Of a stretch of DNA of 64,000 nucleotides, positions 11,085 through 35,223 are shown one piece after another; position 1 is the stretch's first letter; the number at the start of each line of letters is the position of its first letter. Origin of the DNA: Pseudomonas arsenicoxydans (GTDB lineage: Bacteria; Pseudomonadota; Gammaproteobacteria; Pseudomonadales; Pseudomonadaceae). A program made the translations under genes and the position numbers. The notes beneath the pieces were generated by a model. It was given only the letters and a program-made list of their open reading frames with translations, had not been told where the DNA came from and searched no databases. The stretch is from NCBI RefSeq assembly GCF_900103875.1, contig NZ_LT629705.1, forward strand, positions 3,915,001 through 3,979,000, in the 5' to 3' direction.

Positions 11085-11087
11085 GGC

Positions 11088-14281: not shown

Positions 14282-14294
14282 GATCCGCTCTCCG

Positions 14295-16423: not shown

Positions 16424-17286
16424 CGGAAGATCACCGTTCTGTCCTGGTTGAGGAAAACCCTGTGTTCCAAGTGGTATTTGACCGCTTTGGACAGGGCAAC
16501 GGTTTCGGTGTCACGGCCGGTGGCGACCAGGTCGTCAGGCAGATAGACGTGATCGACGCGCTGGACTTCCTGCTCGATGATCGGCCCCTCGTCGAGGTCG
16601 CTGGTGACGTAGTGGGCGGTGGCACCGATCAGTTTCACGCCGCGCTGGTAGGCCTGGTGGTACGGCTTGGCGCCTTTGAAGCCGGGCAAGAATGAGTGGT
16701 GAATGTTGATCGCCCGGCCCGAGAGTTGCTTGCACAGGTCATCGGAGAGGATTTGCATGTAGCGCGCGAGCACCACCAGTTCGGTGCCGGTGTCATCGAC
16801 GACTTTCATCAACTCGGCTTCCTGCCGGGCCTTGGTGTCTTTGGTTACTGGCAAGTAGATGAAGCGAATGCCTTCGCGTTCGGCCATCGGTCGCAGGTCG
16901 AGGTGGTTGGAGACGATGGCGGTGATGGTCATGTCCATCTCGCCTTTGTGGTAGCGGTAGAGGAGGTCGGTCAGGCAGTGGTCGAATTTGCTGACCATCA
17001 GCAAGACGCGCATCGGTTCGCGGGTGTCGTGCAGTTCCCAGGACATGTCGAAGGCGTTGGCGACGTCGGCGAAGCCTTGTTTGATCTGTTGCAGGTCACC
17101 GGGGTGGCCGTCGTTGAAGCGGAATACCGCACGCATGAAAAACCGGCCGCTGAGGTCGTCGTCGAATTGCGCCATCTCCCCGATGTAGCAACCGTTGTCA
17201 GCCAGGTAGGTGGTCACGGCAGCGACGATGCCGGACACGGCGGGACAGGTGATTTTGATGATGAAATGGTTTTTTTCGTGTTGCAT
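16420..17286 (-). CDS. purU: Formyltetrahydrofolate deformylase
   Basis: 288 residues with an N-terminal ACT-like domain (about 5-85) and a formyltransferase-fold catalytic domain carrying [20 protein letters not shown] and [19 protein letters not shown]. These contain the Asn/His/Asp catalytic set. It releases formate and free THF from 10-formyl-THF, finishing the one-carbon branch started by the oxidase and FolD. First gene of the minus-strand operon, with a GAGGA ribosome site before the ATG at 17286. Confidence 0.95.
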
Positions 17287-18935: not shown

Positions 18936-18979
18936 AGTCATCAGCTTCTGCACACTTTCCGTTCAGTAATATTAGTTTC

Positions 18980-19217: not shown

Positions 19218-20552
19218 ATGTTGCCAGCAGAAACCCAGCACATTATCGACAAGCACGGCATCAAGTACGTGCTTGCACAGTTTGTCGATATCCATGGCGC
19301 GGCAAAAACCAAATCGGTGCCGATCTGCGGGCTCAAGGCCGTGGCTGAGGACGGCGCCGGTTTTGCCGGTTTCGCCATCAGCGGCATGGGCATGGAGCCG
19401 CACGGGCCGGACTTCATGGCTCGCGGCGATTTGTCGACGCTGACACCAGTGCCTTGGCAACCGGGTTATGGCCGGGTCGTGTGCATTGGCCATGTCGACG
19501 GCAAGCCGCATCCCTATGACAGCCGCTACGTGCTGCAGCAGCAGATCCGTCGCCTGGAAGACAAGGGCTGGACGCTCAACACCGGCCTGGAACCCGAATT
19601 CAACCTGATGCGCCGTGACGAGCAGGGCAAGCTGCAACTGGTCGATCTGAGCGATAACCTGGACAAGCCTTGCTACGACTACAAAGGTCTGTCGCGCTCC
19701 CGGGTGTTTCTTGAGCGTTTGACTGAAGCGCTGCAAGCGGTGGATTTCGAGGTCTATCAAATCGATCACGAAGACGCCAATGGCCAATTCGAAATCAACT
19801 ACACCTACAGCGATGCCATGACCTCGGCGGATCGCTTCACTTTCTTCCGCATGGCCGCCGGCGAGATTGCCAATGACTTGGGCATGATCTGCTCGTTCAT
19901 GCCCAAGCCCGACCCGAAACGTGCCGGCAACGGCATGCACTTTCACCTGTCGATCAGCAGTGCCGAGAACAAGAACCTGTTCCACGACGCCAGCGATCCG
20001 AGCGGCATGGGCCTGTCGAAAATGGCCTATCACTTCGCCGCCGGCCTGTTGGCACACGGCCCGGCGCTGTGTGCCTTTGCCGCACCGACGGTCAACTCCT
20101 ACAAGCGTCTGGTGGTGGGCAATTCGTTGTCCGGTGCGACCTGGGCGCCGGCCTTTATTGCCTTTGGTGCCAACAACCGCTCCGCGATGGTCCGTGTGCC
20201 TTACGGACGCCTGGAATTTCGCCTGCCGGACGCCGGTTGCAATCCCTATCTGGTCAGCGCGGCCATCATCGCTGCGGGTCTGGACGGCATCGACCGTCAG
20301 TTGGAAATCGACCACGTCTGCAACGAAAACCTCTACAGCCTGAGCCTGGAGCAGATCGCCGCGCGCGGCATCAAGACCCTGCCGCAGTCGCTCAAGGAAG
20401 CCTGCGATGCGCTCGAAGCCGACCCGCTGTTCGCCGAAGTGCTGGGCCCGCAGATCGTGGGCGAGTTCATCAAGCTCAAGCGTATGGAGTGGGTCGAGTA
20501 CAGCCGCCATGTCAGTGACTGGGAAGTCGCGCGCTACACCGAATTTTTCTGA
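19218..20552 (+). CDS. gmaS: Gamma-glutamylmethylamide synthetase / type III glutamine synthetase (GlnT family)
   Basis: 444 residues of the glutamine synthetase fold, starting [19 protein letters not shown] after a GAGG-type site. It has an N-terminal beta-grasp domain ([16 protein letters not shown]) and a C-terminal catalytic domain ([31 protein letters not shown]). Often labelled GlnT or GS type III. In methylamine users this family joins methylamine to glutamate with ATP. The mgsABC genes directly downstream and SoxBDAG-like genes across the regulator support the GMAS role. Length and motifs are complete. Confidence 0.85.
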
Positions 20553-20573
20553 GCCCGCTGGCGGCAGCTACGA

Positions 20574-20668
20574 GCTGCAAGCTTCAAGCCGCAAGTAAAA
20601 GCGGTTTGGCGGTGTGTCACTGCAATTTCTATCAATGTGGATTGCTTGCAGCTTGCAGCTTGCAGCTT
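20574..20668. repeat. Imperfect inverted repeat with GCTTGCA tandem copies between gmaS and mgsA
   Basis: AGCTGCAAGCTTCAAGC (20574-20590) pairs with 20652-20668 with one mismatch. The right side is three tandem GCTTGCA units (20645-20665). This AGCTTGCAGCTT type of repeat is common in Pseudomonas intergenic DNA. It fills the 140-bp gmaS-mgsA gap and could form an mRNA hairpin that tunes downstream expression. Confidence 0.6.
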
Positions 20669-20692
20669 CCGAACGAAGTGAGGACTGTTGTC

Positions 20693-21598
20693 ATGTGTGG
20701 AATCGTAGGTCTTTACCTGAAAAATCCGCAGCTGGAATCCCGGCTGGGGCAGCTCTTCGAACCAATGTTGCAGGCCATGACCGATCGTGGCCCGGACAGT
20801 GCCGGCTTTGCCATCTACGGCGATGAAGTCGCCGATGGCTGGGTCAAGCTGACCCTGCAGGCCACCACCGAAGGCTTCGACTGGAAAACCCTGATGGGCG
20901 AACTGGAAGGGCGCCTGGGCTGTTCACTGGACTGGTTCCAGAACGCCAGTGCGGCGGTGCTGAAGATCCACGCGGACGAGGCGCCGGTCCGTCTGGCCCT
21001 TGCTGAATTGGCACCCAGCGTCCGCATCATGAGCGCCGGGCAGAGCATTGAAATCCTCAAAGGCATGGGGCTGCCCCAGGAAATTTCCCAACGCTTCGGC
21101 CTGGCCGGCATGAAAGGCAGTCACATCATCGGCCACACCCGCATGGCGACTGAAAGCGCGGTGACCATGGAAGGCAGCCACCCGTTTTCCACTGGAGCGG
21201 ACCTGTGCCTGGTGCACAACGGCTCGCTGTCCAACCACTTCCGCCTGCGTCAGGAACTCAAGCGCGAAGGCATCCAGTTTGAAACCGACAACGACACCGA
21301 GGTGGCCGCCGGTTACCTGACCTGGCGTCTGCAGCAGGGCGACTCGTTGAAGGAGGCGCTGGATCATGCGCTGGAAGATCTCGACGGTTTCTTCACTTTC
21401 GCCATCGGCACCCGTAACGGTTTCGCGGTGATTCGCGACCCGATCGCCTGCAAGCCGGCGATCCTCGCCGAGACCGACGACTACGTCGCCATGGCCTCGG
21501 AGTATCAGGCGCTGTCGAGCCTGCCGGGCATTGAAAACGCCAGGATCTGGGAGCCGGCACCGGCCACCTTGTACATCTGGGAACGCGAGTCAGCTTAA
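20693..21598 (+). CDS. mgsA: N-methylglutamate synthase subunit A / class II glutamine amidotransferase (GlxB-like)
   Basis: 301 residues from the ATG at 20693, which places Cys2 (MCGIVGLY) as the N-terminal nucleophile of class II amidotransferases. The longer reading from 20606 would bury it. Motifs DRGPDSAGFAIYGD, GHTRMATESAVT and LVHNGSLSNHF complete the Ntn-hydrolase site. It is homologous to the amidotransferase domain of glutamate synthase. In the N-methylglutamate pathway it acts on the gamma-glutamylmethylamide made by GmaS and passes methylamine to the synthase core. Start of a tight three-gene run. Confidence 0.87.
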   Translation: MCGIVGLYLKNPQLESRLGQLFEPMLQAMTDRGPDSAGFAIYGDEVADGWVKLTLQATTEGFDWKTLMGELEGRLGCSLDWFQNASAAVLKIHADEAPVRLALAELAPSVRIMSAGQSIEILKGMGLPQEISQRFGLAGMKGSHIIGHTRMATESAVTMEGSHPFSTGADLCLVHNGSLSNHFRLRQELKREGIQFETDNDTEVAAGYLTWRLQQGDSLKEALDHALEDLDGFFTFAIGTRNGFAVIRDPIACKPAILAETDDYVAMASEYQALSSLPGIENARIWEPAPATLYIWERESA

Positions 21599-21609
21599 GG
21601 AGCACACAC

Positions 21610-22293
21610 ATGAAAACCATCGATCTTTCCATTGCCACCGTGCGTGACCTCAATCAGGCGCTGCATGACCAGGTCCACAGCGTAGAAGACCGCGAGTGGG
21701 TCGTGACTCACTCCAACGGCAAGCACAATCTCGCCGTCGGGGTGAACCAGGCCGTTTCCATCGATATCCAGGGCCACGCCGGTTACTACTGCGCCGGCAT
21801 GAACCAGAAGGCTTCGATCACCGTTCATGGCAATGCCGGTGTCGGCTGCGCCGAGAACATGATGTCCGGTTATGTGCGGATCAAGGGCAGCGCCTCCCAG
21901 GCCGCCGGCGCCACCGCCCATGGCGGATTGCTGGTGATCGAAGGCGATGCCGGAGCCCGTTGCGGGATTTCCATGAAAGGCATCGACATCGTGGTCGGCG
22001 GCAGCATTGGTCACATGAGCTGTTTCATGGGCCAGGCCGGACGACTGGTGGTGTGCGGTGATGCCGGCGATGCGCTGGGCGATTCGTTGTACGAAACCCA
22101 CATTTATGTGAAGGGCAGCGTTGCCTCCCTGGGCTCGGATTGCATCGAGAAAGAGATGCGCGCCGAGCACCTGGAAGAGCTGCAGGTCCTGCTCAACCGT
22201 GCCGGTTTCGAGCACAAGGCCGCTGACTTCAAGCGCTACGGCTCGGCCCGTCAGTTGTACAACTTCAAAGTCGATAACGCGTCCGCGTATTGA
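21610..22293 (+). CDS. mgsB: N-methylglutamate synthase subunit B (GltB C-terminal beta-helix-like, GlxC)
   Basis: 227 residues matching the GXGXG repeat domain at the C-terminus of the glutamate synthase large subunit. Glycine-rich rungs are visible (HAGYYCAGMNQKASITVHGN, GYVRIKGSASQAAG, GGLLVIEGDAGARCG), as expected for a right-handed beta-helix. It has no catalytic site and acts as a structural bridge between the amidotransferase and FMN subunits. It lies 11 nt after mgsA with a strong AAGGAG site. Confidence 0.87.
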   Translation: MKTIDLSIATVRDLNQALHDQVHSVEDREWVVTHSNGKHNLAVGVNQAVSIDIQGHAGYYCAGMNQKASITVHGNAGVGCAENMMSGYVRIKGSASQAAGATAHGGLLVIEGDAGARCGISMKGIDIVVGGSIGHMSCFMGQAGRLVVCGDAGDALGDSLYETHIYVKGSVASLGSDCIEKEMRAEHLEELQVLLNRAGFEHKAADFKRYGSARQLYNFKVDNASAY

Positions 22294-22313
22294 TTCACGC
22301 CAGGAGAACAGAC

Positions 22314-23648
22314 ATGAGCGACCCTACCAGCCCAAAAGCAGCCCCGGTATTGCGTGAATCCGCGACCTTCGACCGCCTGACCATCCAGGAAATCCAGCGT
22401 GCCGCCGAGACCGGCATCTACGACATTCGCGGTGGCGGCACCAAGCGCAAAGTGCCGCACTTCGATGACTTGCTGCTGCTCGGCGCCAGCGTGTCGCGCT
22501 ACCCGCTGGAAGGTTATCGGGAGAAGTGCGGCACCGATGTGATCCTCGGCAACCGTTTCGCCAAGAAGCCGATCCATCTGAAGATTCCGGTGACCATTGC
22601 CGGCATGAGTTTCGGTGCGTTGTCCGCCAATGCCAAGGAAGCGCTCGGTCGTGGGGCAACCATCGCCGGCACCAGCACCACCACCGGTGACGGCGGCATG
22701 ACGCCGGAGGAACGCGGGCAATCGCAGCACCTGGTCTATCAATATCTGCCGTCGCGTTACGGCATGAACCCGGATGACCTGCGCAAGGCCGATGCCATCG
22801 AAATCGTCCTGGGGCAGGGCGCCAAACCGGGTGGTGGCGGCATGTTGCTGGGCATGAAAGTCACCGAGCGGGTAGCGGGTATGCGCACCTTGCCGATTGG
22901 CGTCGATCAGCGCAGCGCCTGCCGCCACCCGGACTGGACCGGCCCGGATGACTTGGCGATCAAGATTGCCGAACTGCGTGAAATCACCGATTGGGAAAAA
23001 CCGATCTACGTGAAGATCGGCGCCAGCCGGCCTTACTACGACGTCAAGCTGGCGGTGAAGGCCGGCGCGGATGTGATCGTGCTCGATGGTATGCAAGGCG
23101 GCACCGCGGCGACCCAGGAGGTGTTTATCGAACATGTGGGCATCCCGATTTTGCCGGCCATTCCACAAGCGGTACAGGCTTTGCAGGAAATGGGCATGCA
23201 CCGCAAGGTCCAGTTGATCGTTTCGGGAGGGATTCGCAACGGTGCCGACGTGGCCAAGGCCATGGCGCTGGGCGCGGACGCCGTGGCCATCGGCACGGCG
23301 GCGCTGATTGCGCTGGGCGACAACCACCCGCGACTGAATGACGAACTGCAGAAGATCGGCTCAGCCGCAGGCTTTTATGACGACTGGCAGAACGGCCGCG
23401 ATCCGGCCGGGATCACCACGCAGGATCCGGAACTGTCCAAGCGTCTGGATCCGGTGGAGGGCGGACGCCGTCTGGCCAACTACCTGCGGGTGCTGGTGCT
23501 GGAAGCCCAGACCATGGCGCGGGCATGCGGCAAGTCGCACCTGCACAACCTCGATCCGGAGGATCTGGTGGCGCTGACAGTGGAATCGGCCGCGATGGCC
23601 AGGGTGCCACTGGCCGGGACTAGCTGGATTCCGGGCTCCGGTTATTGA
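22314..23648 (+). CDS. mgsC: N-methylglutamate synthase subunit C / FMN glutamate-synthase-like protein (GlxD)
   Basis: 444 residues from the ATG at 22314, which has AGGAG upstream. It matches the FMN-binding synthase domain of glutamate synthase: GMSFGALSANAKEALGRGA, TGDGGMTPEERGQS, QGAKPGGGGMLLG and GGIRNGADVAKAMALGADA. In the pathway this subunit condenses methylamine with 2-oxoglutarate, reductively, to N-methylglutamate. A REP pair follows, then amt. Paralogous glxD naming is common in automatic annotation. Confidence 0.88.
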   Translation: MSDPTSPKAAPVLRESATFDRLTIQEIQRAAETGIYDIRGGGTKRKVPHFDDLLLLGASVSRYPLEGYREKCGTDVILGNRFAKKPIHLKIPVTIAGMSFGALSANAKEALGRGATIAGTSTTTGDGGMTPEERGQSQHLVYQYLPSRYGMNPDDLRKADAIEIVLGQGAKPGGGGMLLGMKVTERVAGMRTLPIGVDQRSACRHPDWTGPDDLAIKIAELREITDWEKPIYVKIGASRPYYDVKLAVKAGADVIVLDGMQGGTAATQEVFIEHVGIPILPAIPQAVQALQEMGMHRKVQLIVSGGIRNGADVAKAMALGADAVAIGTAALIALGDNHPRLNDELQKIGSAAGFYDDWQNGRDPAGITTQDPELSKRLDPVEGGRRLANYLRVLVLEAQTMARACGKSHLHNLDPEDLVALTVESAAMARVPLAGTSWIPGSGY

Positions 23649-23765: not shown

Positions 23766-23848
23766 GATCAGGGGGCCCACCAAGAGGCCCATGAAATCCA
23801 ATTGCTCACTGCCCGGCACTTCCCATTTCTTTTGCAGGAGCTTTGAAC

Positions 23849-25174
23849 ATGGTCAATCGTCTTCTTGGCAAATCCCTTCTTGGCCTGTTAGCCAGTGGTG
23901 CACTGGTGCCGTTGGCTCAGGCGGCCGACGCACCCACCTTGAACACCGGCAGCACCGCGTGGATGGTCACCGCCGCCGTGCTGGTGTTGTTCATGTGTCT
24001 GCCGGGCCTGGCCCTGTTTTATGGCGGCCTGGTGCGGGCGAAAAACATGTTGTCGTTGTTCACCCAGTGCTTTGGCGTCGCCGGACTGGTGGGTGTTTTA
24101 TGGGTGATCTACGGCTACAGCATGGTGGTCGACACCACGGGCATGGTCGAGGGGCAAGTGACCTTCAACAGCTTTGTCGGAGGCTTGAACCGAGCCTTTC
24201 TGGCGGGAATGACCCCGCAGAGCCTGGTCGGCGATATACCGGAAGGCGTGTTCGTGACCTTCCAGATGACCTTCGCCATCATCACTCCGGCGCTGATTGC
24301 CGGGGCGTTTGCCGAGCGCATGAAGTTTTCGGCAGCGCTGTGGTTCATGGCGCTGTGGTTCACCCTGGTGTATGCCCCGGTGGCCCATATGGTATGGGGC
24401 GGTTCGGGCGCCTTGATGCATAACTGGGGCGTCCTCGATTTTGCCGGCGGTACGGCGGTGCATATCAACGCCGGCGTCGCGGCTTTGGCTGCGTGTCTGA
24501 TTCTCGGCAAGCGCAAGGGCTACCAGAACACGCCGATGCCGGCGCACAACTTGAGCCTGACCATGGCGGGGGCGGCCATGCTCTGGGTCGGCTGGTTTGG
24601 TTTCAATATCGGCTCCGGTGGCGGCCTAAACGGCACTTCCGGGATTGTCATGCTCAACACTCAATTGGGTGCTTGCGCCGGGATTCTCGGCTGGATGTTC
24701 ACCGAGTGGTTCAAGGTCGGCAAGCCAAGTGCCTTGGGCCTTGCCAGTGGTGCGCTGGCCGGCCTGGTGGGCATCACACCGGCGTGCGCCTATGTGGGCG
24801 TCGGTGGTGCGCTGGCGATCGGTCTGCTGTGCGGGGTGTTCTGCTATTTGAGCGTCACCGTCCTCAAGCGCCGCTTCGGCTATGACGACAGCCTTGATGT
24901 ATTCGGCTTGCACGGAATCGGCGGGATGATCGGCGCGGTACTGACCGGGGTGTTCTGCGTGCCGTCGCTGGGCGGGATGGTCGAAGGCGTGACCATGGGC
25001 GCGCAAGTGGTGGCGCAAATCAAGGGTGTGCTGCTGACAACGGTGTATTGCTTCGCCGTCAGCTGGATCATTCTTAAGGTAATCAATGCCGTGATCGGCT
25101 TGCGTGCCGATGAGTCGGTGGAGGAGATGGGACTGGATCTGGCCGAGCACAACGAGCGTGCCTATAACCATTGA
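23849..25174 (+). CDS. amt: Ammonium/methylammonium transporter (Amt family)
   Basis: 441 residues from the ATG at 23849, with GGAG 8 nt before it. A signal peptide-like start (LLGLLASGALVPLAQAAD) precedes eleven predicted membrane spans. Family motifs include PGLALFYGGLVRAKNM, FGFNIGSGGG and DVFGLHGIGGMIGAVLTGVF. It conducts ammonium and also methylammonium. At the end of gmaS-mgsABC it is the likely methylamine entry route, or recovers released ammonia. No GlnK gene is adjacent. Confidence 0.93.
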   Translation: MVNRLLGKSLLGLLASGALVPLAQAADAPTLNTGSTAWMVTAAVLVLFMCLPGLALFYGGLVRAKNMLSLFTQCFGVAGLVGVLWVIYGYSMVVDTTGMVEGQVTFNSFVGGLNRAFLAGMTPQSLVGDIPEGVFVTFQMTFAIITPALIAGAFAERMKFSAALWFMALWFTLVYAPVAHMVWGGSGALMHNWGVLDFAGGTAVHINAGVAALAACLILGKRKGYQNTPMPAHNLSLTMAGAAMLWVGWFGFNIGSGGGLNGTSGIVMLNTQLGACAGILGWMFTEWFKVGKPSALGLASGALAGLVGITPACAYVGVGGALAIGLLCGVFCYLSVTVLKRRFGYDDSLDVFGLHGIGGMIGAVLTGVFCVPSLGGMVEGVTMGAQVVAQIKGVLLTTVYCFAVSWIILKVINAVIGLRADESVEEMGLDLAEHNERAYNH

Positions 25175-25226: not shown

Positions 25227-26270
25227 TCAGCGGAACGCTGGGACCACGTGTTTGATGAACAGCTCCAGGGACTTTTTCTTTTCCGCATGGGGCAGGCTGT
25301 TGTCGCACCAGAAGCTGAATTCGTCGACGCCCAGTTCCTGGTAATACTTGATGCGCGGAATGATTTCTTCCGGCGTGCCGATCATGGCGGTCTTGTGCAG
25401 GCTCTCCAGTTGGAACTCCGGACGCTCGGCGAATTTTTCTTCCGGGCTCGGTGCGAGGAAACCGTTGACCGGTGTTTGCTTGTTGCCGAACCAGGCGTCG
25501 AAAGTGCGGTAGAACTTCGAGATCGCCTTGGCGCCGACTTTCCAGCCCTCGGGGTCATCGACGGCGTGGACGTGGGTGTGACGCAGCACCATCAATTGCG
25601 GGCGGGGCACGTCGGGGTTGTTGTCCAGCGCGGTCTGGAACTTGTTCTTCAGGTCGAGGACTTCTTCGTCGCCTTTCATCAGCGGCGTGACCATGACGTT
25701 GCAACCGTTGGCCACGGCGAAGTTGTGGGAGTCAGGGTCGCGAGCGGCAATCCACATCGGCGGGTTGGGCTTCTGGATCGGCTTTGGCACGCTGGTGGAG
25801 GTCGGGAATTTCCAGATATCACCGTCGTGGGCGTAGTCGCCTTGCCACAATGCCCGGACCACTGGAACCATTTCGCGCAGTGCCTGACCGCCGGACGAAG
25901 CAGGCATGCCGCCGGCCATCCGGTCGAACTCAACCTGGTAAGCGCCACGGGCCAGGCCGACTTCCATGCGTCCGTTGCTGATCACATCGAGCAACGCGCA
26001 TTCACCGGCGACCCGCAACGGGTGCCAGAACGGGGCGATGATGGTGCCGGCGCCCAGATGAATGGTGGTGGTCTTGGCTGCCAGGTAGGCCAGCAGCGGC
26101 ATAGGGCTTGGCGAGATGGTGTATTCCATGGCGTGGTGTTCGCCGATCCAGACAGTGCTGAAACCACCGGCCTCGGCCATCAGGGTCAGTTCGGTCAAGT
26201 CTTCGAACAGCTGGCGATGGCTGACGCTCTCGTCCCAACGTTCCATGTGCACGAACAGCGAAAATTTCAT
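25227..26270 (-). CDS. LLM-class flavin-dependent monooxygenase
   Basis: 347 residues of the bacterial luciferase-like fold (MKFSLFVHMERWDESVSHRQ; WIGEHHAMEY; HLGAGTIIAPFWHPLRVAGE; GRMEVGLARGAYQVEF). It uses reduced FMN and oxygen. It lies 100 nt downstream of a flavin reductase gene on the same strand, giving a two-component oxygenase. It is shorter than, and not closely like, RutA, so uracil is not assumed. It belongs to the group of genes with TGGTATACC-type operators. The substrate is unknown. Confidence 0.88.
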   Translation of the reverse strand: MKFSLFVHMERWDESVSHRQLFEDLTELTLMAEAGGFSTVWIGEHHAMEYTISPSPMPLLAYLAAKTTTIHLGAGTIIAPFWHPLRVAGECALLDVISNGRMEVGLARGAYQVEFDRMAGGMPASSGGQALREMVPVVRALWQGDYAHDGDIWKFPTSTSVPKPIQKPNPPMWIAARDPDSHNFAVANGCNVMVTPLMKGDEEVLDLKNKFQTALDNNPDVPRPQLMVLRHTHVHAVDDPEGWKVGAKAISKFYRTFDAWFGNKQTPVNGFLAPSPEEKFAERPEFQLESLHKTAMIGTPEEIIPRIKYYQELGVDEFSFWCDNSLPHAEKKKSLELFIKHVVPAFR

Positions 26271-26370: not shown

Positions 26371-26856
26371 TCAGGCGAGCACGGGCAGGGCGCCCATCTT
26401 GCCGTGGCAATACACCAGTGGCCCGGCGTTCTGCTGAGGCACGATCAGGTTCTTCACGGCGCCAACCATGATCGCGTGGTCGCCGCCTTCATATTCGCGC
26501 CACAGTTCGCATTCGATCACGGCCGTGGCGTTCGCCAGAATCGGATTGCCCAGCTCGCTCAAGGTCCATTCGATGCCTTGCGCCTTGTCTTTGCCTTTAC
26601 GGGCGAACGCATAGGCTTCGCTTTGCTGGCCGCCGGACAGCACGTGAATGGCAAAGCGTTTGTTCTTGATCAGTACCGGATACGAGTCGGAGCTGTAGTT
26701 GGGGCAGAACAGCACCAGGGCCGGGTCCATGGACAGCGAGCTGAAGGCGCTGGCGGTCAGGCCGACGATCTGGCCGTCGTCATCGAGTGTAGTGATGACA
26801 GTCACCCCGGACGGAAACGAACCCATTACTTGTTTGTAGATGGCGGCATCGATCAT
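26371..26856 (-). CDS. Flavin reductase of a two-component monooxygenase (RutF/HpaC-like)
   Basis: 161 residues of the flavin-reductase-like split barrel: FPSGVTVITTLDDDGQIVGLTASAFSS binds FMN, and CHGKMGAL is near the C-terminus. It would supply FMNH2 to the LLM monooxygenase encoded just downstream. The operator at 26908-26926 lies 52 bp before its ATG. First gene of a two-gene operon. Confidence 0.9.
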   Translation of the reverse strand: MIDAAIYKQVMGSFPSGVTVITTLDDDGQIVGLTASAFSSLSMDPALVLFCPNYSSDSYPVLIKNKRFAIHVLSGGQQSEAYAFARKGKDKAQGIEWTLSELGNPILANATAVIECELWREYEGGDHAIMVGAVKNLIVPQQNAGPLVYCHGKMGALPVLA

Positions 26857-26907: not shown

Positions 26908-26926
26908 ATGGTATACCGTAATACAT
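26908..26926 (-). promoter_or_regulatory. TGGTATACC-type operator 1 (flavin reductase/LLM operon)
   Basis: ATGGTATACCGTAATACAT, centred on the GGTATACC palindrome. Three closely similar sequences lie at 27081, 33637 and 34889, each before a gene of the same putative regulon. The shape suits a GntR (FadR-type) dimer. Confidence 0.7.
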
Positions 26927-27080
26927 AGTTTGCAAGGGCTTTTTTTGTCGCCCGATAAACGTATGGAATTGGTGTTTCGTCCAATGATTGCTGGGGCTTT
27001 AACGATTAAGTGCGATCTTGTGTGGCTCAGAAAAGCGGGGCAGATCGTCGCAAAAAAACCGGATCAGTCTTGTGAAAATG

Positions 27081-27099
27081 TTGGAATACCATAATATGG
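27081..27099 (+). promoter_or_regulatory. TGGTATACC-type operator 2 (permease gene)
   Basis: TTGGAATACCATAATATGG, 77 bp upstream of the permease start. Its first 18 bases are identical to the operator before the ABC transporter (33637-33663, other strand). The rest of the 26857-27175 gap shows no gene. Confidence 0.7.
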
Positions 27100-27175
27100 C
27101 CAGCCTCTGAGGGGCGGTCCAAGAGCTCCCCCGGTTTGGCTTCATACAAATATAAGATCAGACAAACTCGAGTTC

Positions 27176-28587
27176 ATGCACATGTCCCAGATGTCCCGGC
27201 AAGACCCCCTGATCGAGAATCATACGGTCGATTACGTCCCTCTCGCGGAACGCCACGGGAAGGCCCGCGATCTTTTCACCTTGTGGTTCAGCACCAACAT
27301 TGCGCCGCTGCCCATCGTCACCGGTGCGATGGTGGTGCAAGTGTTCCACCTCAATCTTTTCTGGGGGTTGCTGGCCATTGCGCTTGGGCACATGGTGGGC
27401 GGCCTGGTGATCGCCCTGGCCTCGGCGCAAGGCCGCGCATGGGCATTCCGCAGATGGTCCAGAGTCGCGGCCAGTTCGGTCGTTATGGTGCGCTGCTGAT
27501 CGTGTTCTTTGCCGCGCTCATCTACGTCGGCTTTTTCATCTCCAACATCGTGTTGGCCGGCAAATCCATCGTCGGCCTTGCGCCATCGGTTCCGGTTCCG
27601 GCGAGCATCCTTATCGGTGCGTTGAGCGCCACCGCGATCGGGGTGATCGGCTACCGCTTCATTCATACGCTCAACCGCATCGGGACCTGGGTGATGGGCA
27701 GTGCCTTGCTGGCCGGTTTCCTCTATATCTTTGCTCATGACTTGCCGGCTGACTTTTTCACTCGCGGCAGTTTCAATGTATCCGGCTGGCTGGCGACGGT
27801 GTCGCTGGGCATTATCTGGCAGATCAGCTTTTCGCCTTACGTGTCGGACTATTCGCGTTACCTGCCAGCCGATATCGGAATTGCCCGTCCGTTTTTCGCT
27901 ACTTACCTGGGCGCAACGCTGGGTACCATTTTGTCTTTTACCTTTGGTGCGGTCGCGGTGCTGGCGACGCCGGAAGGCACTGAAGCGATGGCGGCGGTGA
28001 AGCAATCGACCGGTTGGTTGGGGCCGATTTTGATGGTGTTGTTTTTGCTCAATATCATCAGCCACAACGCCTTGAATCTGTATGGCGCGGTGCTGTCGAT
28101 CATTACGTCGATCCAGACGTTTGCCAGTCAATGGACGCCGAGCATCAAGGTGCGTGTGGTTTTGTCGAGTGGGGTGCTGGCGGGCTGCTGTGTGGTGGCG
28201 TTGGGGGCTTCGGCGGATTTCATTTCGCAGTTCATCGGGTTGATTCTGGCGTTGTTGCTGGTGTTGGTGCCTTGGGCTTCGATCAACTTGATCGACTTTT
28301 ATCTGATCAAGCGTGGGTGTTATGACATTGCTTCGATTTTCCGCGCGGATGGCGGGATTTACGGGCGGTTCAATTGGCATGCGATTGTGGCGTATTTCAT
28401 CGGGATTATTGTGCAGCTGCCGTTTGCCAATACGTCGTTGTATGTCGGGCCTTATGCCAATCTGGTGGACGGTGCGGATTTGTCCTGGTTGGTGGGGTTG
28501 GTGGTGACGTGTCCGCTTTACTATTGCCTGGCGACGCGGGGGCAGGTGCAGGAGGGCAGGGTTTCGCGGTTGGGGTTTGCTGACTGA
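27176..28587 (+). pseudogene. NCS1-family permease (cytosine/purine permease type), frameshifted
   Basis: The N-terminal 85 or so codons (ATG at 27176; LFTLWFSTNIAPLPIVTGAM, ALGHMVGGLVIALASAQG) are in one frame. The rest (PRMGIPQMVQSRGQFGRYG onward, ending LGFAD at 28587) is in another. The switch is at 27431-27437, where GGCCGCGC seems to have lost one C from GGCCCGCGC. Restoring it gives a normal, complete NCS1 permease of about 470 residues with 12 spans. Such proteins import nucleobases, hydantoins or related heterocycles. Either a real inactivation or a sequencing error. Operator 2 lies upstream. Confidence 0.85.
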
Positions 28588-28643
28588 TTACGTTGTTTGT
28601 GTGGTTTGGGGTGCCCGGCTTTGGTCGGGCGTTTTTTTGTGTG

Positions 28644-29431
28644 TATATCCGTTATTTGGGTGATGGCGGCTATTGGTTCCGCCTTTACGGCGGGTCACTT
28701 GGAAGAGCGCCAAGTAACCAAGCGCCAGCGCCCCTGACGTACGGTGCCTCGCCTAGGCTCGGCATTCCCTCACTCCGGTCCTGCTCCGTGGGCCCGCCGC
28801 CATCGGCCATCCATGGCCGGGGGCGGCTAACCCGGCATCCATGCCGGGTTGCCCACTACGCAGAACCTGCGTTCGGCCTCCCGACGGGGCAGATCAAGAT
28901 CAAGATCAAAAGCGGAAGGCGAGCTAACGCTCGACCTGATGAGTGGTGAGGAGCAACAGCGGTGCGCCGTTCCGCTTAATGTTGATCGTTCCCACGCTCC
29001 GCGTGGGAATGCATCCCGTGACGCTCCGCGTCACCCTTGCGCAAGACTCAAGCCTGCTGTCGACAGCGGAACGCAGAGCGTCCCCGGCGGCATTCCCACG
29101 CGGAGCATGGGAACGATCAGCACGCGCAAGCGTTGAGCAAACAGGCCGGCCGGCAGGCCGCCTCGTTTTGCTTTGGCGGTGCACGCCCCCTCGAGAGGCC
29201 GAGTGGAGGTTCTGCGCAGTGGGCACCGCGGCAAGGATGCCGCGGTAGCCGCCCCCGGCCATGGATGGCCGATGGCGGCGGGCCCACGGAGCAGGACCGG
29301 AGCGAGGGCATGCCGAGCCTAGGCGAGGCACCGAACGTCAGGGGCAAAAGCGCTTGGTTACTTGGCGCTTCTCCAAGTGACCCGCCGTCAGGGCGGAACC
29401 AATATCCGCCATCACCAAAAAAACGGATATG
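28644..29431. repeat. Composite intergenic repeat 2: arm A, REP pair, inverted arm B
   Basis: Same build and orientation as the element at 17499. Arm A (28644 to about 28979) ends in CTGATGAGTGGTGAGGAGCA. The REP core is about 28980-29120. Inverted arm B (29121-29431) contains AGGCCGCCTCGTTTTGCTTT and closes with CGGATATG. It fills the gap between the permease pseudogene and the ABC operon. The predicted frames within it are not genes. Confidence 0.85.
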
Positions 29432-29530
29432 CCCCCAACCAAAAACCAAAAACCCAAAAAAAAGGGCCACCACAACCCGACGTTGCAGCGACCCGAGGGT
29501 GACGCTATGTAAATACGGCCCAGCCGAAAA

Positions 29531-30685
29531 TCAATGCGCCCCGGCAGCCTTGTTCAAATCACTCTCAGCCCACTCGGTATACACACAAGCATCCGCAGTA
29601 GCCCAACGCACACGAACCGGATCCCCCGTCTTGAGCGGCATACCCGCAGCAGACAGCGCCTTCACAGTCATCGAAGTCCCGCCCAGCGTCTTGACGGTGC
29701 ACGTCTGGCTCTCACCCAGAAACAACACCTCACCGACAATCGCCGATACCTCATTCCAGCCCGCCGCCAGAGGCTCACGAGCCGCCTGCTCTACACTCAA
29801 CGCCAACGCCTTCTCCGGACGCACCATCAGCAGCACATCCTGATCGATCTGCAACCCGGCAGTCAGACGAATCGACAGCGACTGCCCTTCAAACGAAGCC
29901 ACCGCGTTGCCCTGAGCCTTGAGCTTGAGGAAGTTCGAGTTACCCAGGAACGACGCGACAAACGCATTCGGCGGGTTCTGATACAGATCAAAACCACTGC
30001 CCAGCCCGACGATTTTCCCATGGCTGAAAATGGCGATGCGCTGAGACAAACGCATGGCTTCTTCCTGATCGTGGGTCACGTAGACAATGGTGATGCCCAG
30101 GCGACGGTGCAGCTGGCGCAGCTCGTCCTGCAAATCTTCACGCAGTTTCTTGTCGAGCGCGCCGAGCGGTTCGTCCATCAGCAAAATACGTGGCTCATAC
30201 ACCAGCGCTCGCGCAATGGCGACCCGTTGCTGCTGGCCGCCGGAGAGTTGCGAAGGGCGGCGATGGGCGAACTGTTCCAGTTGCACCAACTTGAGCATCG
30301 CATCGACCCGACGCTCGCGCTCGGCGGCGGGCAGTTTGCGGATCGCCAGTGGGAACGCGATGTTGTCGCGGACCGACAAGTGCGGGAACAGCGAGTAACG
30401 CTGGAACACCATGCCAATGTCGCGCTTGTGCGGCGGCACGTTGACCAGCGATTGGCCATTGACCAGGATCTCGCCGCTGCTCGGGGTTTCGAAGCCGGCG
30501 AGCATCGACAGCGTTGTACTTTTACCGGATCCGCTGGAGCCGAGGAAGGTCAGGAATTCACCGTCCTTGATGTCCAGCGAGATGTCGTCCACGGCGGCAA
30601 ATTCGCCGTAGTACTTGTTCAGGTTGCGCAGGCTTACCAGGGGTTGGTCACTGTGTTGCGCGGAATCTTTGATCACTGCACTCAT
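29531..30685 (-). CDS. ABC transporter ATP-binding protein (PotA-like)
   Basis: 384 residues with Walker A GSSGSGKST (about 49-57), signature LSGGQQQRVAIARAL, Walker B ILLMDEPLGALD and a C-terminal TOBE-type domain (about 290-375). This is the polyamine/opine/iron-type (PotA/FbpC) importer ATPase. Last gene of an operon ordered binding protein, permease, permease, ATPase, with the ATG at 30685 after AGGAG. The operator upstream of the operon links it to the LLM monooxygenase. The transported compound is unknown. Confidence 0.92.
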   Translation of the reverse strand: MSAVIKDSAQHSDQPLVSLRNLNKYYGEFAAVDDISLDIKDGEFLTFLGSSGSGKSTTLSMLAGFETPSSGEILVNGQSLVNVPPHKRDIGMVFQRYSLFPHLSVRDNIAFPLAIRKLPAAERERRVDAMLKLVQLEQFAHRRPSQLSGGQQQRVAIARALVYEPRILLMDEPLGALDKKLREDLQDELRQLHRRLGITIVYVTHDQEEAMRLSQRIAIFSHGKIVGLGSGFDLYQNPPNAFVASFLGNSNFLKLKAQGNAVASFEGQSLSIRLTAGLQIDQDVLLMVRPEKALALSVEQAAREPLAAGWNEVSAIVGEVLFLGESQTCTVKTLGGTSMTVKALSAAGMPLKTGDPVRVRWATADACVYTEWAESDLNKAAGAH

Positions 30686-30702
30686 GTCGTACTCCTGGGC
30701 GC

Positions 30703-31512
30703 TCAGGCGCTGATTTCATTGCGCCGGCGAACGGCGGCGGCGATCACCATGACCAATACCGAGAGGCCGATCAGCAACGTCGAAGCGACGGCGATCACAG
30801 GCGTCAGGTCCTGGCGCAGGGTGGTCCACATTTTCACGGGAAGGGTTTGCAGGGTCGGGCTGGCCATCATCACGCTCAGCACCACTTCATCCCACGAGAC
30901 AAGGAAGGCGAAGAGGGCGCCGGCCACCATGCCCGGACGAATGGCCGGGAAGGTCACCTTGAATACCGCTTGCAGGCGCGAGGCGCCGCAGATTACCGCC
31001 GCATCTTCAATCGACTGATCGAACAGCTTCAGCGAGTTGATGATCGAGATGATGGTGAACGGCAACGCGACGATCACGTGGCTGACGACGAAGGCAAACA
31101 TCGTGCCGGTATAGCCGAGCTTGAGGAACAGCGCGTACACCGCCACCGCAATGATCACCAGTGGCACGATCATCGGCAGGGTGAATAGGCCGTAAAGCAT
31201 TTCCCGACCCGGGAAGCGTCCGCGCACCAATGCAAACGCGGTGGGCAAGCCCAGCGCAACGGCGAAGAAGGTGGTCAGGACCGCGACCTTGAGACTGGCC
31301 ACGGCGGCGTTCATCCAGTCGGCATTGGAGAAGAACTGGCCGTACCACTTCAGCGTCCAGCCCGGTGGCGGGAACACCAGCCACTGGGAGGAGCCGAAGG
31401 ACAGCAACACGATGAACACGATCGGCAGCAACAGGAACAGCGCGATCAGCCCGGTCGTGAAATACAGGCCGAAGCGCATGCGCCGGCTCATGGCATTGGG
31501 AGTCAGTAGCAT
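30703..31512 (-). CDS. ABC transporter permease (PotC-like)
   Basis: 269 residues with six membrane spans and the permease EAA loop (SIEDAAVICGASRLQAVFKVTFPAIRPG). Second permease of the PotABCD-type importer. It starts at 31512, 6 nt after the preceding permease stop, with GAGG 9 nt before the ATG. Confidence 0.92.
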   Translation of the reverse strand: MLLTPNAMSRRMRFGLYFTTGLIALFLLLPIVFIVLLSFGSSQWLVFPPPGWTLKWYGQFFSNADWMNAAVASLKVAVLTTFFAVALGLPTAFALVRGRFPGREMLYGLFTLPMIVPLVIIAVAVYALFLKLGYTGTMFAFVVSHVIVALPFTIISIINSLKLFDQSIEDAAVICGASRLQAVFKVTFPAIRPGMVAGALFAFLVSWDEVVLSVMMASPTLQTLPVKMWTTLRQDLTPVIAVASTLLIGLSVLVMVIAAAVRRRNEISA

Positions 31513-31518
31513 GATGGC

Positions 31519-32463
31519 TTACCTCGCGTTGCTGGCGCCAACCGGGGATTCCGGCTGAAGCTTCAGGTAGAAGTAGAACAACACCAGCGTGATCACGATC
31601 AGCAACGCGGCGCCGGCGCTCGCCAGGCCCCAGTTGAGGAAGGACTGCACCTGTTGAATGATGAACTCGGGCAACATCATGTTCTGCGCGCCACCGAGCA
31701 AGGCCGGGGTGACGTAGTACCCGAGCGACATCACGAACACCATCAGCCCACCGGAAAACAGGCCCGGCCGGCACAGCGGCAGGAACACCCGGAAGAAGTT
31801 GGTCCAGGGACTGGCACCGCAGATCGAGCCGGCTTGCAGGATCATCGGATCGATGGCCTGCATGGTCGCCTGCAGCGGCAGGACGATGAACGGGATCATG
31901 ATGTAGCTCATGCCGATCACCACGCCGGTGAGGTTATGCACCATCTCCAGCGGTTGATCGATGATGCCCATCGCCATCAGCGCCTTGTTGATCACCCCGG
32001 AGGCTTGCAGCAACACCAGCCAGGAATAGGTGCGGGCGAGGAGGCTGGTCCACATCGACAGCAGCACGATGTTGAGGATCCAGCGCCCCCAGCCACGTGG
32101 CACCAGGGTGATGGCCCAGGCCAGCGGAAAACCCAGCAGCAGGCTGAACAGCGTCACCAGGCCGGCCACGGAGAAGGTGTTGAGCAAGACCCGGGCATAC
32201 GCCGAGTTGGCGAACAGCTGCTCGTAGTTGCCAAGGCCCGGAACGGGTTCCAGCACACCACGCAGCAGCAGGCCGATCAGCGGCGCCAGGAAGAACAGGC
32301 CCAGAAACAGCAGGGCCGGAATCAGGTTGCTCGCACCGCGCCAGCGCTGCGCCATCGACGCAGGTTGTTTAGGCACTGCTGCCTTGGCGGGAACCGCCCC
32401 GGCAGCGCCAGCGGCGCTCCCGGTCTTGGTTGCTGGAGAGGAAGCTGTTGCCGCCATTTTCAT
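31519..32463 (-). CDS. ABC transporter permease (PotB-like)
   Basis: 314 residues from the ATG at 32463, whose ATGA overlaps the binding-protein stop; a reading from 32484 is also open. An Ala/Pro-rich N-terminal tail (about 1-40) precedes six spans. The EAA loop is QAGSICGASPWTNFFRVFLPLCRPG. First permease of the importer. Confidence 0.92.
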   Translation of the reverse strand: MKMAATASSPATKTGSAAGAAGAVPAKAAVPKQPASMAQRWRGASNLIPALLFLGLFFLAPLIGLLLRGVLEPVPGLGNYEQLFANSAYARVLLNTFSVAGLVTLFSLLLGFPLAWAITLVPRGWGRWILNIVLLSMWTSLLARTYSWLVLLQASGVINKALMAMGIIDQPLEMVHNLTGVVIGMSYIMIPFIVLPLQATMQAIDPMILQAGSICGASPWTNFFRVFLPLCRPGLFSGGLMVFVMSLGYYVTPALLGGAQNMMLPEFIIQQVQSFLNWGLASAGAALLIVITLVLFYFYLKLQPESPVGASNAR

Positions 32464-33485
32464 TTGACCAGCCATTCGTTCCACCGTGTCGCGATGGCCG
32501 GACCGTTCTTGGCCCAGTACGCGAAATCAAGAGTGATTTGATCCTTGGCGTAGGCGGTCGGCAGGTTAGGCGCCAGCACTGAATCCAGGCGTGCAACGCT
32601 GTCGACGTTGACCGGCGCATAGGCGGTCAGGTTGGAGAAGTCGGCCTGTCCTTTGGCGCTGCTCGCGTTGGCCAGGAACTTCATGGCCGCTGCCTTGTTT
32701 TTCGTGCCTTTAGGGATGACCAGGATGTCGGCCATGACCAGGTTCTGTTTCCAGCTCACACCCACCGGCGCGCCATCTTCTTGCAGGGCGTGGATCCGGC
32801 CGTTCCAGAACTGGCCCATGCTCGCTTCACCCGAGGCCAGCAGCTGTTGCGACTGTGCACCACCGCCCCACCAGACGATGTCTTTCTTGATGGTGTCGAG
32901 TTTCTTGAAGGCGCGATCCAGGTCCAGCGGATAGAGCTTGTCGGCAGCCACGCCATCGGCCAGCAGTGCCAGTTCGAGCACGCCAGGGCTTGGCCATTTG
33001 TAGAGGGCGCGTTTGCCGGGGTAGGTCTTGGTGTCGAACAGTGCGGACCAGTCCTGAGGTTTGCTGGCGCCGAGCTTGCTTTCGTTGTAACCCAGGACAA
33101 AGGAGAAGAAGAACGAACCGACGCCGTAATCGGAAACAAACCGCGGGTCGATTTTGTCGCGCTGGATTACCGAGAAATCGAGGGGTTCGAGCAAGCCTTC
33201 GGAGGCGGCGCGCAGGGCGAAGTCGGCTTCGACGTCAACCACGTCCCATTGCACGTTGCCGCTTTCGACCATGGCTTTGAGTTTGCCGTAGTCGGTTGGA
33301 CCGTCCTGGACCACCGTGACGCCGCTGGCTTTGCTGAACGGATCGGCCCAGGCCTGCTTCTGTGCATCCTGGGTGCTACCGCCCCAACTGACGAAGTTGA
33401 CGCTTTCAGCCGCAATGGCCGCGTGACTGACCGTGGCCAGTAAACCCGCGAACAGTACTGCGGTTGCACGTTTGTTCAACACCAT
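32460..33485 (-). CDS. ABC transporter substrate-binding protein (PotD/spermidine-type family)
   Basis: 341 residues from the ATG at 33485 (GAGGG 7 nt upstream; a GTG at 33491 is the alternative). A Sec signal peptide (ATAVLFAGLLATVSHAAIAA) is followed by VNFVSWGGSTQDAQKQAWAD, typical of the PotD/opine-binding group. First gene of the importer, with operator 3 about 150 bp upstream. The ligand cannot be read from the sequence. By regulon it should be the substrate, or a precursor, of the LLM monooxygenase. Confidence 0.9.
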   Translation of the reverse strand: MVLNKRATAVLFAGLLATVSHAAIAAESVNFVSWGGSTQDAQKQAWADPFSKASGVTVVQDGPTDYGKLKAMVESGNVQWDVVDVEADFALRAASEGLLEPLDFSVIQRDKIDPRFVSDYGVGSFFFSFVLGYNESKLGASKPQDWSALFDTKTYPGKRALYKWPSPGVLELALLADGVAADKLYPLDLDRAFKKLDTIKKDIVWWGGGAQSQQLLASGEASMGQFWNGRIHALQEDGAPVGVSWKQNLVMADILVIPKGTKNKAAAMKFLANASSAKGQADFSNLTAYAPVNVDSVARLDSVLAPNLPTAYAKDQITLDFAYWAKNGPAIATRWNEWLVK

Positions 33486-33636
33486 TTTCACGCCCTCATT
33501 GTTGTGTTTTTGAGCGGGCTTGGTAATGCCCGCCTATCGGGAGCAGTAGGTCCATCTGGCCTCTAACGGCGACCGTGCCAAGGGCTGTTATTGGTGCTTT
33601 CCCTGTCGGGGGCACTTGGCTGAAGCGTCCGGTCTA

Positions 33637-33663
33637 TGGAATATCATATTATGGTATTCCAAA
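33637..33663 (-). promoter_or_regulatory. TGGTATACC-type operator 3 (ABC importer operon)
   Basis: On the minus strand it reads TTTGGAATACCATAATATG, matching operator 2. Here it is extended into a near-palindrome, TGGAATA (33637-33643) to TATTCCA (33655-33661). It lies about 150 bp upstream of the binding-protein gene and past the ribBA stop, so the importer has its own promoter. Confidence 0.7.
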
Positions 33664-33746
33664 CTTTGTGCAAGCACTTTGCCTTACCGGCCATCAGCCA
33701 AAAGCGGGTTTTTTTTCCGTCAGGCCACCCTGCGGCGCGTCTGCGC

Positions 33747-34856
33747 TTATCCAGTGAACGGAATGCTCTCGACGACTTCCAGGTCGTAACCGGTCAAGCC
33801 TGCGTATTTGAGCGGCGGGCCAAGGTGACGCAGCTTGCCCACGCCGAGATCCTGCAGAATCTGTGCCCCGGTCCCTACTTCAGAATAGATCCGCGATTGC
33901 GAACGGCTGAACTGTCGGGGTGCCTGGGTTAATTGTGGCACTCGTTCGAGCAAGGCCTGGGACGATTCATGATTGGCCAGCACCACCACCACGCCGCAGC
34001 CTTCGGCCGCCACCCGTTGCAAGGCTGCCCATAATGTCCAGTTGGAAGGACCGCTGTATTCGGCGCCCACCAGGTCCCGCAACGGGTCGATTACGTGCAC
34101 GCGCACCAGTGTCGGTTCGTTGCGTTGCGGGTTGCCCATGACCATTGCCATGTGAACGCCGCCTTCGATGCGGTCTTCAAACGTAATCAGGCGGAAAGTG
34201 CCGTGCACCGTGGGCAGTTCACGCTCGCCGATACGCACCACGGTGTGTTCAGTGCTGAGGCGATAGTGGATCAGGTCGGCGATGGTGCCGATCTTGATCC
34301 CGTGCTTGCGCGCGAAGATTTCCAGGTCGGGACGTCGCGCCATGGTGCCGTCGTCGTTCATGACTTCGACGATCACCGAGGCTGGCGTGAAGCCGGCCAG
34401 GCGGGCGAGGTCGCAGCCGGCCTCGGTGTGCCCGGCGCGGGTCAGCACGCCGCCTTCCTTGGCGCGCAATGGAAAGATGTGGCCAGGTTGCACCAGGTCC
34501 GCCGGAACGGCGTCGACGGCAACGGCCGCGGCCACCGTGCGTGCGCGGTCGGCGGCGGAAATGCCGGTGGTCACGCCGACGGCGGCCTCGATGGAAACGG
34601 TAAACGCGGTGCTGAACACGCTGCCGTTGCTCGGCACCATTTGTTCCAGTCCGAGCCGCTGGCAGTGGTCGTCGGTCAAGGTCAGGCAGATCAGGCCGCG
34701 GGCTTCTCGTGCCATGAAGCTGATTGCTTGCGGCGTGCAGCAGTCGGCGGCGAGCAGCAGGTCGCCTTCGTTTTCGCGGTCTTCATCGTCAACCAGCAGC
34801 ACCATTTTGCCGAGTCGATAGTCTTCGATGATTTCTTCGATGCTGTTGAAGGCCAT
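33747..34856 (-). CDS. ribBA: RibBA-type protein: DHBP synthase with degenerate GTP cyclohydrolase II domain
   Basis: 369 residues. The first domain (about 1-200) is a complete 3,4-dihydroxy-2-butanone-4-phosphate synthase, with DDEDRENEGDL (23-33) and RAGHTEAGCDLARLAG. The second aligns with GTP cyclohydrolase II, but where the zinc motif HSECLTGD and later RQEGRGIG are expected it has VHVIDPLRDLVGAEY and LANHESSQALL. The zinc cysteines are missing, so it should make only the ribulose-derived riboflavin precursor. Operator 4 lies 33 bp upstream, so it probably boosts flavin supply for the monooxygenase pair. Likely a second copy. Confidence 0.88.
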   Translation of the reverse strand: MAFNSIEEIIEDYRLGKMVLLVDDEDRENEGDLLLAADCCTPQAISFMAREARGLICLTLTDDHCQRLGLEQMVPSNGSVFSTAFTVSIEAAVGVTTGISAADRARTVAAAVAVDAVPADLVQPGHIFPLRAKEGGVLTRAGHTEAGCDLARLAGFTPASVIVEVMNDDGTMARRPDLEIFARKHGIKIGTIADLIHYRLSTEHTVVRIGERELPTVHGTFRLITFEDRIEGGVHMAMVMGNPQRNEPTLVRVHVIDPLRDLVGAEYSGPSNWTLWAALQRVAAEGCGVVVVLANHESSQALLERVPQLTQAPRQFSRSQSRIYSEVGTGAQILQDLGVGKLRHLGPPLKYAGLTGYDLEVVESIPFTG

Positions 34857-34888
34857 GTTGGGTTCTCAGTGTTTGGTGGGAATGTAAT

Positions 34889-34907
34889 GTGGTATACCAT
34901 AATACAA
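34889..34907. promoter_or_regulatory. TGGTATACC-type operator 4 (ribBA / DUF1330 divergent promoters)
   Basis: GTGGTATACCATAATACAA between the divergent ribBA (start 34856) and DUF1330 (start 34927) genes, so one site may serve both. It contains the full GGTATACC palindrome, as operator 1 does. Confidence 0.7.
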
Positions 34908-34926: not shown

Positions 34927-35223
34927 ATGAAGGCGTACTGGATTGCTCATGTTGATGTCACCGATCCCGATCAATACAGCCAATACACCCAGCGGGCGCC
35001 GGCGGCTTTTGCGTTGTACGGTGGGCGGATGCTGGCCAGGGGCGGGCGCAGCGAAGCGATGGAAGGCCGGCCGACGCCGCAACGCAGTGTGGTGATTGAA
35101 TTTGATTCGTATGAGCAGGCGCTGGCTTGCTATCACAGCGAGCAGTATCAGGAGGCGAAACGGCACCGTGAGGGTGTGGCGCGGGCTGAGGTCATTATTG
35201 TTGAGGGTGTGGTGCCGGTTTGA
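34927..35223 (+). CDS. DUF1330 family protein
   Basis: 98 residues of the DUF1330 fold, a small dimeric ferredoxin-like (ABM-type) protein (KAYWIAHVDVTDPDQYSQYT, GGRMLARGG, VVIEFDSYEQALACYHSEQY). No catalytic role is firmly known. The start at 34927 follows CGAGAGG. It shares operator 4 with ribBA, which ties it to the monooxygenase regulon. It may act on or shield an unstable intermediate of that pathway, which is speculation. Confidence 0.88.
   Translation: MKAYWIAHVDVTDPDQYSQYTQRAPAAFALYGGRMLARGGRSEAMEGRPTPQRSVVIEFDSYEQALACYHSEQYQEAKRHREGVARAEVIIVEGVVPV

Follow-up and report, generated by a model that had tools for sequence, protein, structure and literature searches.

A 64,000-nucleotide stretch of Pseudomonas arsenicoxydans DNA (contig NZ_LT629705.1, positions 3,915,001 to 3,979,000; hereafter the window) carries four copies of one sequence element, and we consider it very probable that these are operators of a regulon for the catabolism of trigonelline (N-methylnicotinate), a plant alkaloid found in coffee and legumes, under the control of a GntR/FCD regulator. 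Trigonelline is the most likely substrate since the core genes and the operator are as in Acinetobacter baylyi and since methylamine-type genes track the LLM flavin monooxygenase of the regulon. A first-pass annotation of the same DNA had already placed the four sites and the genes that follow them, and both are present as described: a flavin reductase and then the LLM gene on the minus strand, an NCS1 permease, a four-gene PotABCD-like ATP-binding cassette (ABC) importer, and ribBA with DUF1330.

A shared operator and its probable GntR/FCD regulator

Within the window the pattern TGGWATACCATAATAY, allowing up to three mismatches, has seven matches, all at the four operator places, against 0.24 expected from shuffles and with seven reached in 0 of 100 shuffles; operator 3 is the 18-mer of operator 2 on the minus strand. 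Over the whole 6.50 Mb genome, the 15-bp core TGGWATACCATAATA (up to two mismatches) has 10 matches, of which eight fall at five intergenic places. This agrees with the single shared operator proposed earlier, and the scatter over random positions that the same proposal had named as its refutation was not seen. The remaining two matches (347052 and 748775) carry two mismatches each and lie within long open reading frames (ORFs), and the backward pattern, used as a control, matches twice. At many sites overlapping cores form a 20-bp palindrome, TATTATGGTATACCATAATA; an Acinetobacter (L154) and plasmid pRL10 of Rhizobium johnstonii 3841 each have a copy without flaw in either half. The centre of the palindrome, TGGTATACCA, resembles the operators of FadR-type GntR regulators. 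Scans for sigma-70 promoters found nothing in one stretch and, in the other, one 9-of-12 match overlapping operator 3, and were uninformative since that match is near the shuffle mean.

The fifth operator place (G000:C1:5090253-5090272), which has overlapping cores on both strands, lies 1.15 Mb from the window sites and heads an operon (locus L011, 9310-14052) encoding an AA_synth protein, an alpha/beta hydrolase, an aldehyde dehydrogenase (ALDH), a flavin reductase, a carboxymuconolactone-decarboxylase-like protein (CMD) and, last, a GntR/FCD regulator. The GntR/FadR-type regulator that the first-pass annotation expected elsewhere in the genome therefore exists, with its own copy of the motif, and the dedicated pathway for an N-containing, perhaps heterocyclic, compound that it envisaged is probably right. 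Both PF00392 (winged helix) and PF07729 (FCD) are above cut-off in the regulator, placing it in the FadR subfamily of the GntR family, and likewise in the regulators of A. baylyi and R. johnstonii. The segment LGVSRTxVRE, by its position the putative recognition helix, varies hardly at all among 14 regulators of alpha-, beta- and gammaproteobacteria, and we infer that the regulator binds the palindrome centred on TGGTATACCA. Of 81 related loci, 80 have an AA_synth gene (DUF1185, PF06684; here L011 9310-9900); structures of the family exist (2qtp and 3byq), both named uncharacterised. One remnant, L121, is a decaying copy of the fifth-site operon in which AA_synth and the reductase are cut, the hydrolase and ALDH were not found, and GntR and the operator are retained.

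Co-occurrence was surveyed in the same genus (120 genomes requested, 119 covered; motif at up to one mismatch), where LLM is present in 63 genomes, GntR in 64 and the motif in 66, and where all 63 LLM-bearing genomes also have the regulator, the motif and the binding protein of the importer. Counted as both, first only, second only and neither, LLM and motif give 63/0/3/53 (Fisher 1e-30), LLM and GntR 63/0/1/55, and GntR and motif 64/0/2/53; Fisher values here overstate the association, since genomes of one genus are not independent. The binding protein (E<=1e-100) accompanies LLM in 63/63 genomes and occurs in 1/56 LLM-negative ones (G076), and motif matches number 353 in LLM-positive genomes and nine in the rest. 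Three genomes have the motif without LLM: G058 retains a decayed operon that includes GntR; G076 has its sites at a contig start (C29:576-763), so that its LLM gene was probably cut off by the contig end; and G114 has a single match and neither LLM nor GntR. Across the order as a whole the monooxygenase is rare, being found in 11/390 genomes of the order at E<=1e-100 and in 21/199 genomes of one family of the order at E<=1e-60.

The placement of the sites was counted in 22 sources from 18 genomes, picked for holding LLM or the motif; the upstream counts leave aside L121, a remnant, and L122-L127, which are distant. One NCS1 search used the C-terminal 373 residues as probe. These sources contain 85 sites (up to one mismatch), none within a probe-matched gene. 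A site (up to two mismatches, within 400 bp upstream) precedes AA_synth in 12/13 copies, LLM in 11/18, a chemoreceptor in 4/4 and a BCCT carrier in 1/1 (for the leading genes of the window see the table), and none precedes the internal operon genes (permeases, ATPase, hydrolase, ALDH, second reductase, CMD and GntR); the backward pattern gave 0. Moreover, 78 of 80 AA_synth loci (79 genome contigs and one plasmid) have a site within 250 bp upstream at up to two mismatches, with 0 in the control. That the motif is a repeat or a chance pattern is scarcely credible: chance matches do exist, as the two of the 10 within ORFs and the lone match in G114 indicate, but the near-zero controls, the placement before first genes and the conservation over classes all speak for an operator.

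Likeness to the probable trigonelline cluster of Acinetobacter baylyi

Trigonelline catabolism was reportedly worked out in A. baylyi, by Perchat in 2018, as a pathway whose end products are said to be succinic semialdehyde, formate, CO2 and methylamine. Related loci were found with a query protein from G653 that is 100% identical to A. baylyi DSM 14961 (the best 80 of 237 confirmed, with flanks of up to 9 kb each, so that counts of linked genes are lower bounds). In A. baylyi DSM 14961 the stretch comprises DUF1330, GntR, the operator (one mismatch), AA_synth, the hydrolase, flavin reductase, LLM, ALDH and NCS1, together with a second ALDH, CMD and one ORF that no Pfam model matches; save for that ORF and the second ALDH, all of these are alike here, and flavin reductase, ALDH and hydrolase all stand behind the shared operator. 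We infer that the A. baylyi locus is that of the characterised ADP1 tgn genes (TgnB, UniProt Q6F9F6), and since the gene set of the regulon is that of this cluster, the pathway is most likely not an uncharacterised one, contrary to what had been supposed. With the window LLM as query one protein is found in A. baylyi (E<=1e-60), and with the A. baylyi LLM as query the window LLM is the only match in this genome (E<=1e-20); the window LLM is probably an ortholog of TgnB, and 4 of the 120 LLM relatives listed, which are 77-82% identical, are called ‘flavin-dependent trigonelline monooxygenase, oxygenase component’ by JGI. The systems differ in that the genes here are divided between two regions, 1.15 Mb from each other, and the operator stands at five places, in that two short flavin reductases (161 aa) stand against one of 310 aa there, and in that the ABC importer and the RibB-type gene are extra here.

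We suggest that in this strain a GntR/FCD repressor of the TgnR/GtsR kind would bind the palindrome and come off it in the presence of trigonelline or a pathway product, that the ABC importer, and NCS1 where intact, would take up trigonelline, and that flavin reductase and LLM (TgnA/TgnB) would open its ring. ALDH (TgnC) and the alpha/beta hydrolase (TgnD) would then act on the ring-opened product to yield succinic semialdehyde, formate, CO2 and methylamine; the RibB-type enzyme may support flavin supply, and operator-less N-methylglutamate-type genes nearby may assimilate the methylamine.

Candidates for that last pathway lie beside the monooxygenase, within 10488-23648, though the models used name other functions for them. 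They are the glutamine synthetase-like gene as gamma-glutamylmethylamide synthetase (GmaS), a role suggested by its neighbours; GlxBCD as N-methylglutamate synthase (MgsABC); and the sarcosine-oxidase-like genes as N-methylglutamate dehydrogenase (MgdABCD), to which 10488-11084, having no model match, is assigned by position only. No operator was found upstream of the methylamine-type genes in this window. In A. baylyi, similarly, sarcosine-oxidase-like genes adjoin the cluster, one of them matching the SoxB-like protein here at 85% identity, and a GlxD 92% identical to that of the window lies about 13 kb away. GlxD is present in 28/119 genomes of the genus (E<=1e-150), 27 of them LLM-positive (both, LLM only, GlxD only, neither: 27/36/1/55; Fisher 3e-8), and it was found in four, and not in two, of a further six genomes of the order that carry LLM. 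Since the methylamine-type genes stand beside LLM and track it, a substrate with an N-methyl group is favoured, though unproven, over pyridine or nicotinate.

Several points weigh against trigonelline. The LLM protein is only 50% identical to the A. baylyi protein and is nearer (79.5%) to one from an Arthrobacter plasmid, in a cluster where no operator was found at up to three mismatches. The NCS1 gene is frameshifted here, and the GlxD marker is missing from 36/63 LLM-positive genomes at the threshold used. The second ALDH of relatives, a succinic semialdehyde dehydrogenase (SSADH) present in 43/81 related loci, matched nothing in the window when used as a probe and nothing in L011 but the first ALDH (41%), in a search that covered these two loci. 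The nearness of the Arthrobacter protein would fit a regulon for pyridine or another non-methylated pyridine, in which the ring would be cleaved by the chemistry of the Arthrobacter pyridine pathway and the likeness to tgn would be only mechanistic; we regard this as very unlikely, given that A. baylyi has the same accessory genes and operator, that methylamine-type genes track LLM, that BCCT carriers occur in some clusters and that the binding protein is of a zwitterion-binding kind. The evidence also points away from the pyrimidines, hydantoins and cyclic imides that the first-pass annotation put forward as substrates. A Rut-type pyrimidine pathway was considered and rejected, the RutF model scoring 69.1 bits against a cut-off of 254.75.

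Genes of the window

Features of the window. Positions count from its first nucleotide; site counts are for the 22 sources described in the text.
Feature	Position	Strand	Remarks
Operator 1	26908..26926	+	core TGGTATACCGTAATA; precedes flavin reductase/LLM; site within 400 bp upstream in 16/16 flavin reductase copies
Operator 2	27081..27099	+	TGGAATACCATAATA; precedes NCS1 permease; site in 11/13 NCS1 copies
Operator 3	33637..33663	-	two overlapping cores, inverted orientation; precedes ABC importer; site at 14/17 binding-protein genes
Operator 4	34884..34907 (first annotated as 34889-34907)	+	cores overlap on both strands, in the gap from which ribBA and DUF1330 diverge; site in 16/16 ribBA and 16/16 DUF1330 copies
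LLM flavin monooxygenase	25227..26270	-	PF00296; 172/346 identical to A. baylyi protein
Flavin reductase (putative TgnA role)	26371..26856	-	PF01613; 72% identical to paralog in fifth-site operon
NCS1 permease	27176..28587	+	PF02133; two reading frames, break near 27433
ABC importer ATPase, PotA-like	29531..30685	-	
ABC importer permease, PotC-like	30703..31512	-	
ABC importer permease, PotB-like	31519..32484	-	
ABC substrate-binding protein, Pf622/Gts type	32460..33491 (start codon not settled)	-	similarity to 6dgv and 4eq7
RibB with RibA-like tail (annotated RibBA)	33747..34856	-	
DUF1330 protein	34927..35223	+	PF07045
Sarcosine-oxidase-like genes, heterotetrameric	10488..15536	-	soxA, soxB and soxD models match, all below cut-off; no operator
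FolD and PurU, one-carbon handling	15518..17286	-	no operator
Type III glutamine synthetase-like	19218..20552	+	TIGR03105 above cut-off; no operator
GlxBCD	20606..23648	+	domain matches; no operator
Ammonium transporter family protein	23843..25174	+	TIGR00836 above cut-off; no operator

Two of the gene assignments made earlier hold in part. The ‘ribBA’ gene, which diverges from DUF1330 out of one 70-bp gap, is where it was said to be and encodes RibB; its RibA half scores 30.6 bits with TIGR00505 against a cut-off of 205.85 and is without the usual cysteine cluster, so that the product is better called RibB with a RibA-like tail. A second gene like it, 58% identical, lies at G000:C1:1822047-1823126. 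Two import routes had likewise been proposed: the ABC importer stands, and the NCS1 route is broken in this assembly by a frameshift, through either true loss or a mistake in the assembly; NCS1 is in a single frame at all 12 other loci compared. The Arthrobacter dokdonellae pDCT5 cluster (L235) includes riboflavin kinase, NUDIX, tautomerase and two AA_synth genes; with the RibB-type gene here and riboflavin kinase there, flavin supply was seemingly added more than once. Close to the NCS1 and DUF1330 genes there are copies of an intergenic repeat, gcggctattggttccgcctttacggcgggt with its flanks: those at 28666 and 35313 share one strand, and one near 29380 is inverted.

The importer, the rhizobial gts operon and GABA

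By sequence the window binding protein is a member of the Pf622/Gts/Atu4243 group: 297 of 317 aligned residues (94%) are identical to PDB 6dgv (Pf622, the precursor of iGABASnFR) and 187 of 309 to 4eq7, which has the same sequence as 4euo and to which the binding protein of the Sinorhizobium meliloti cluster scores 613.8 bits. In some relatives (L105, L111, L119 and L128) a chemoreceptor gene (dCache, HAMP and MCPsignal domains) also has the operator, and its nearest solved structure is 6mni, which we take to be PscC; a paralog in this genome (73%) lies elsewhere, with no motif match nearby. A BCCT carrier (PF02028) with sites upstream is found in G042, and BCCT genes in 5/81 related loci. The name Atu4243 for 4euo comes from PMC6829864, and the origin of Pf622 in Pseudomonas fluorescens from the eLife iGABASnFR2 paper. 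Unlike the protein considered here, Pf622 and Atu4243 have been studied as binders of gamma-aminobutyric acid (GABA), and the word trigonelline has 0 occurrences in the main texts of the GABA-binder papers examined, the eLife paper included.

It could accordingly be argued that the regulon serves GABA or a plant GABA derivative, with the monooxygenase acting on a GABA precursor: the binding protein is almost the same as Pf622, binders and importers of GABA are described among related systems, and PscC receptors, to which the relatives' chemoreceptor is presumably nearest, are described as binding GABA and proline. We think this very unlikely, considering that GABA itself calls for neither a ring-opening monooxygenase nor ALDH, hydrolase or methylamine genes and that the binding protein (at the threshold given above) is missing from 55 of the 56 LLM-negative genomes, the exception being G076 with its LLM gene probably cut off.

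The operon of R. johnstonii (leguminosarum) 3841 is, we assume, the GtsR-controlled GABA transport operon of White's 2009 study, thought to degrade a more complex precursor; GtsR is said there to control pRL100242-252, with GtsABCD as pRL100248-251. It resembles the regulon here in having GntR, AA_synth, hydrolase, flavin reductase, LLM, ALDH, binding protein, permeases and ATPase and in a perfect 20-bp palindrome, whose end is 25 bp from AA_synth on the upstream side, and has SSADH in the operon too; it differs in being one operon, with a NIPSNAP gene, where there are several units here. The literature describes gts as a GABA transport system, and PMC7105596 gives pRL100242 as an amino acid synthesis family protein and pRL100245 as an LLM protein, which from the gene order would be this same locus. 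Plasmid records with an LLM relative (E<=1e-60) number 325, of which 153 are named Rhizobium and 72 Sinorhizobium; with the S. meliloti LLM as query 57/326 plasmid matches are less than 60% identical, so that these relatives need not all be the same enzyme. On pSymA of S. meliloti ABS7 the cluster and its ABC importer lie between noeB and nifT, with an insertion sequence (IS) element intervening.

From gene context and molecular shape we predict that trigonelline is the natural ligand of the window binding protein. Extending this, we lean, by a narrow measure, towards the view that trigonelline, which is rigid and zwitterionic and spaces its charges much as GABA does, is also the natural ligand of Pf622, Atu4243 and GtsA and elicits a response from iGABASnFR, that the otherwise unexplained enzymes of gts form a trigonelline pathway, and that a single GntR/operator pair ties import to catabolism, flavin supply and, in some species, chemotaxis across Proteobacteria. 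In the open-licence literature, where not meeting a thing is weak evidence of its absence, we met, among the papers listed, neither the palindrome, its conservation across classes nor the wider regulon, no bacterial TgnR study by title, no Pseudomonas trigonelline regulon and, by title or start of abstract, nothing linking trigonelline to binding proteins. By the wider regulon we mean the RibB-type enzyme, DUF1330 and the ABC importer and, in relatives, the chemoreceptor and the BCCT carrier.

A vaguely outlined regulon thus becomes a named and testable plant-alkaloid pathway with an operator and a likely regulator, and three literatures are joined, those on trigonelline catabolism in Acinetobacter, on the rhizobial gts operon and on the GABA sensors of neuroscience. 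If the Pf622 family does bind trigonelline, trigonelline would have to serve as a control for GABA sensors built on that family, and what has been reported on the uptake of GABA by bacteria through Gts-type importers would need rereading.

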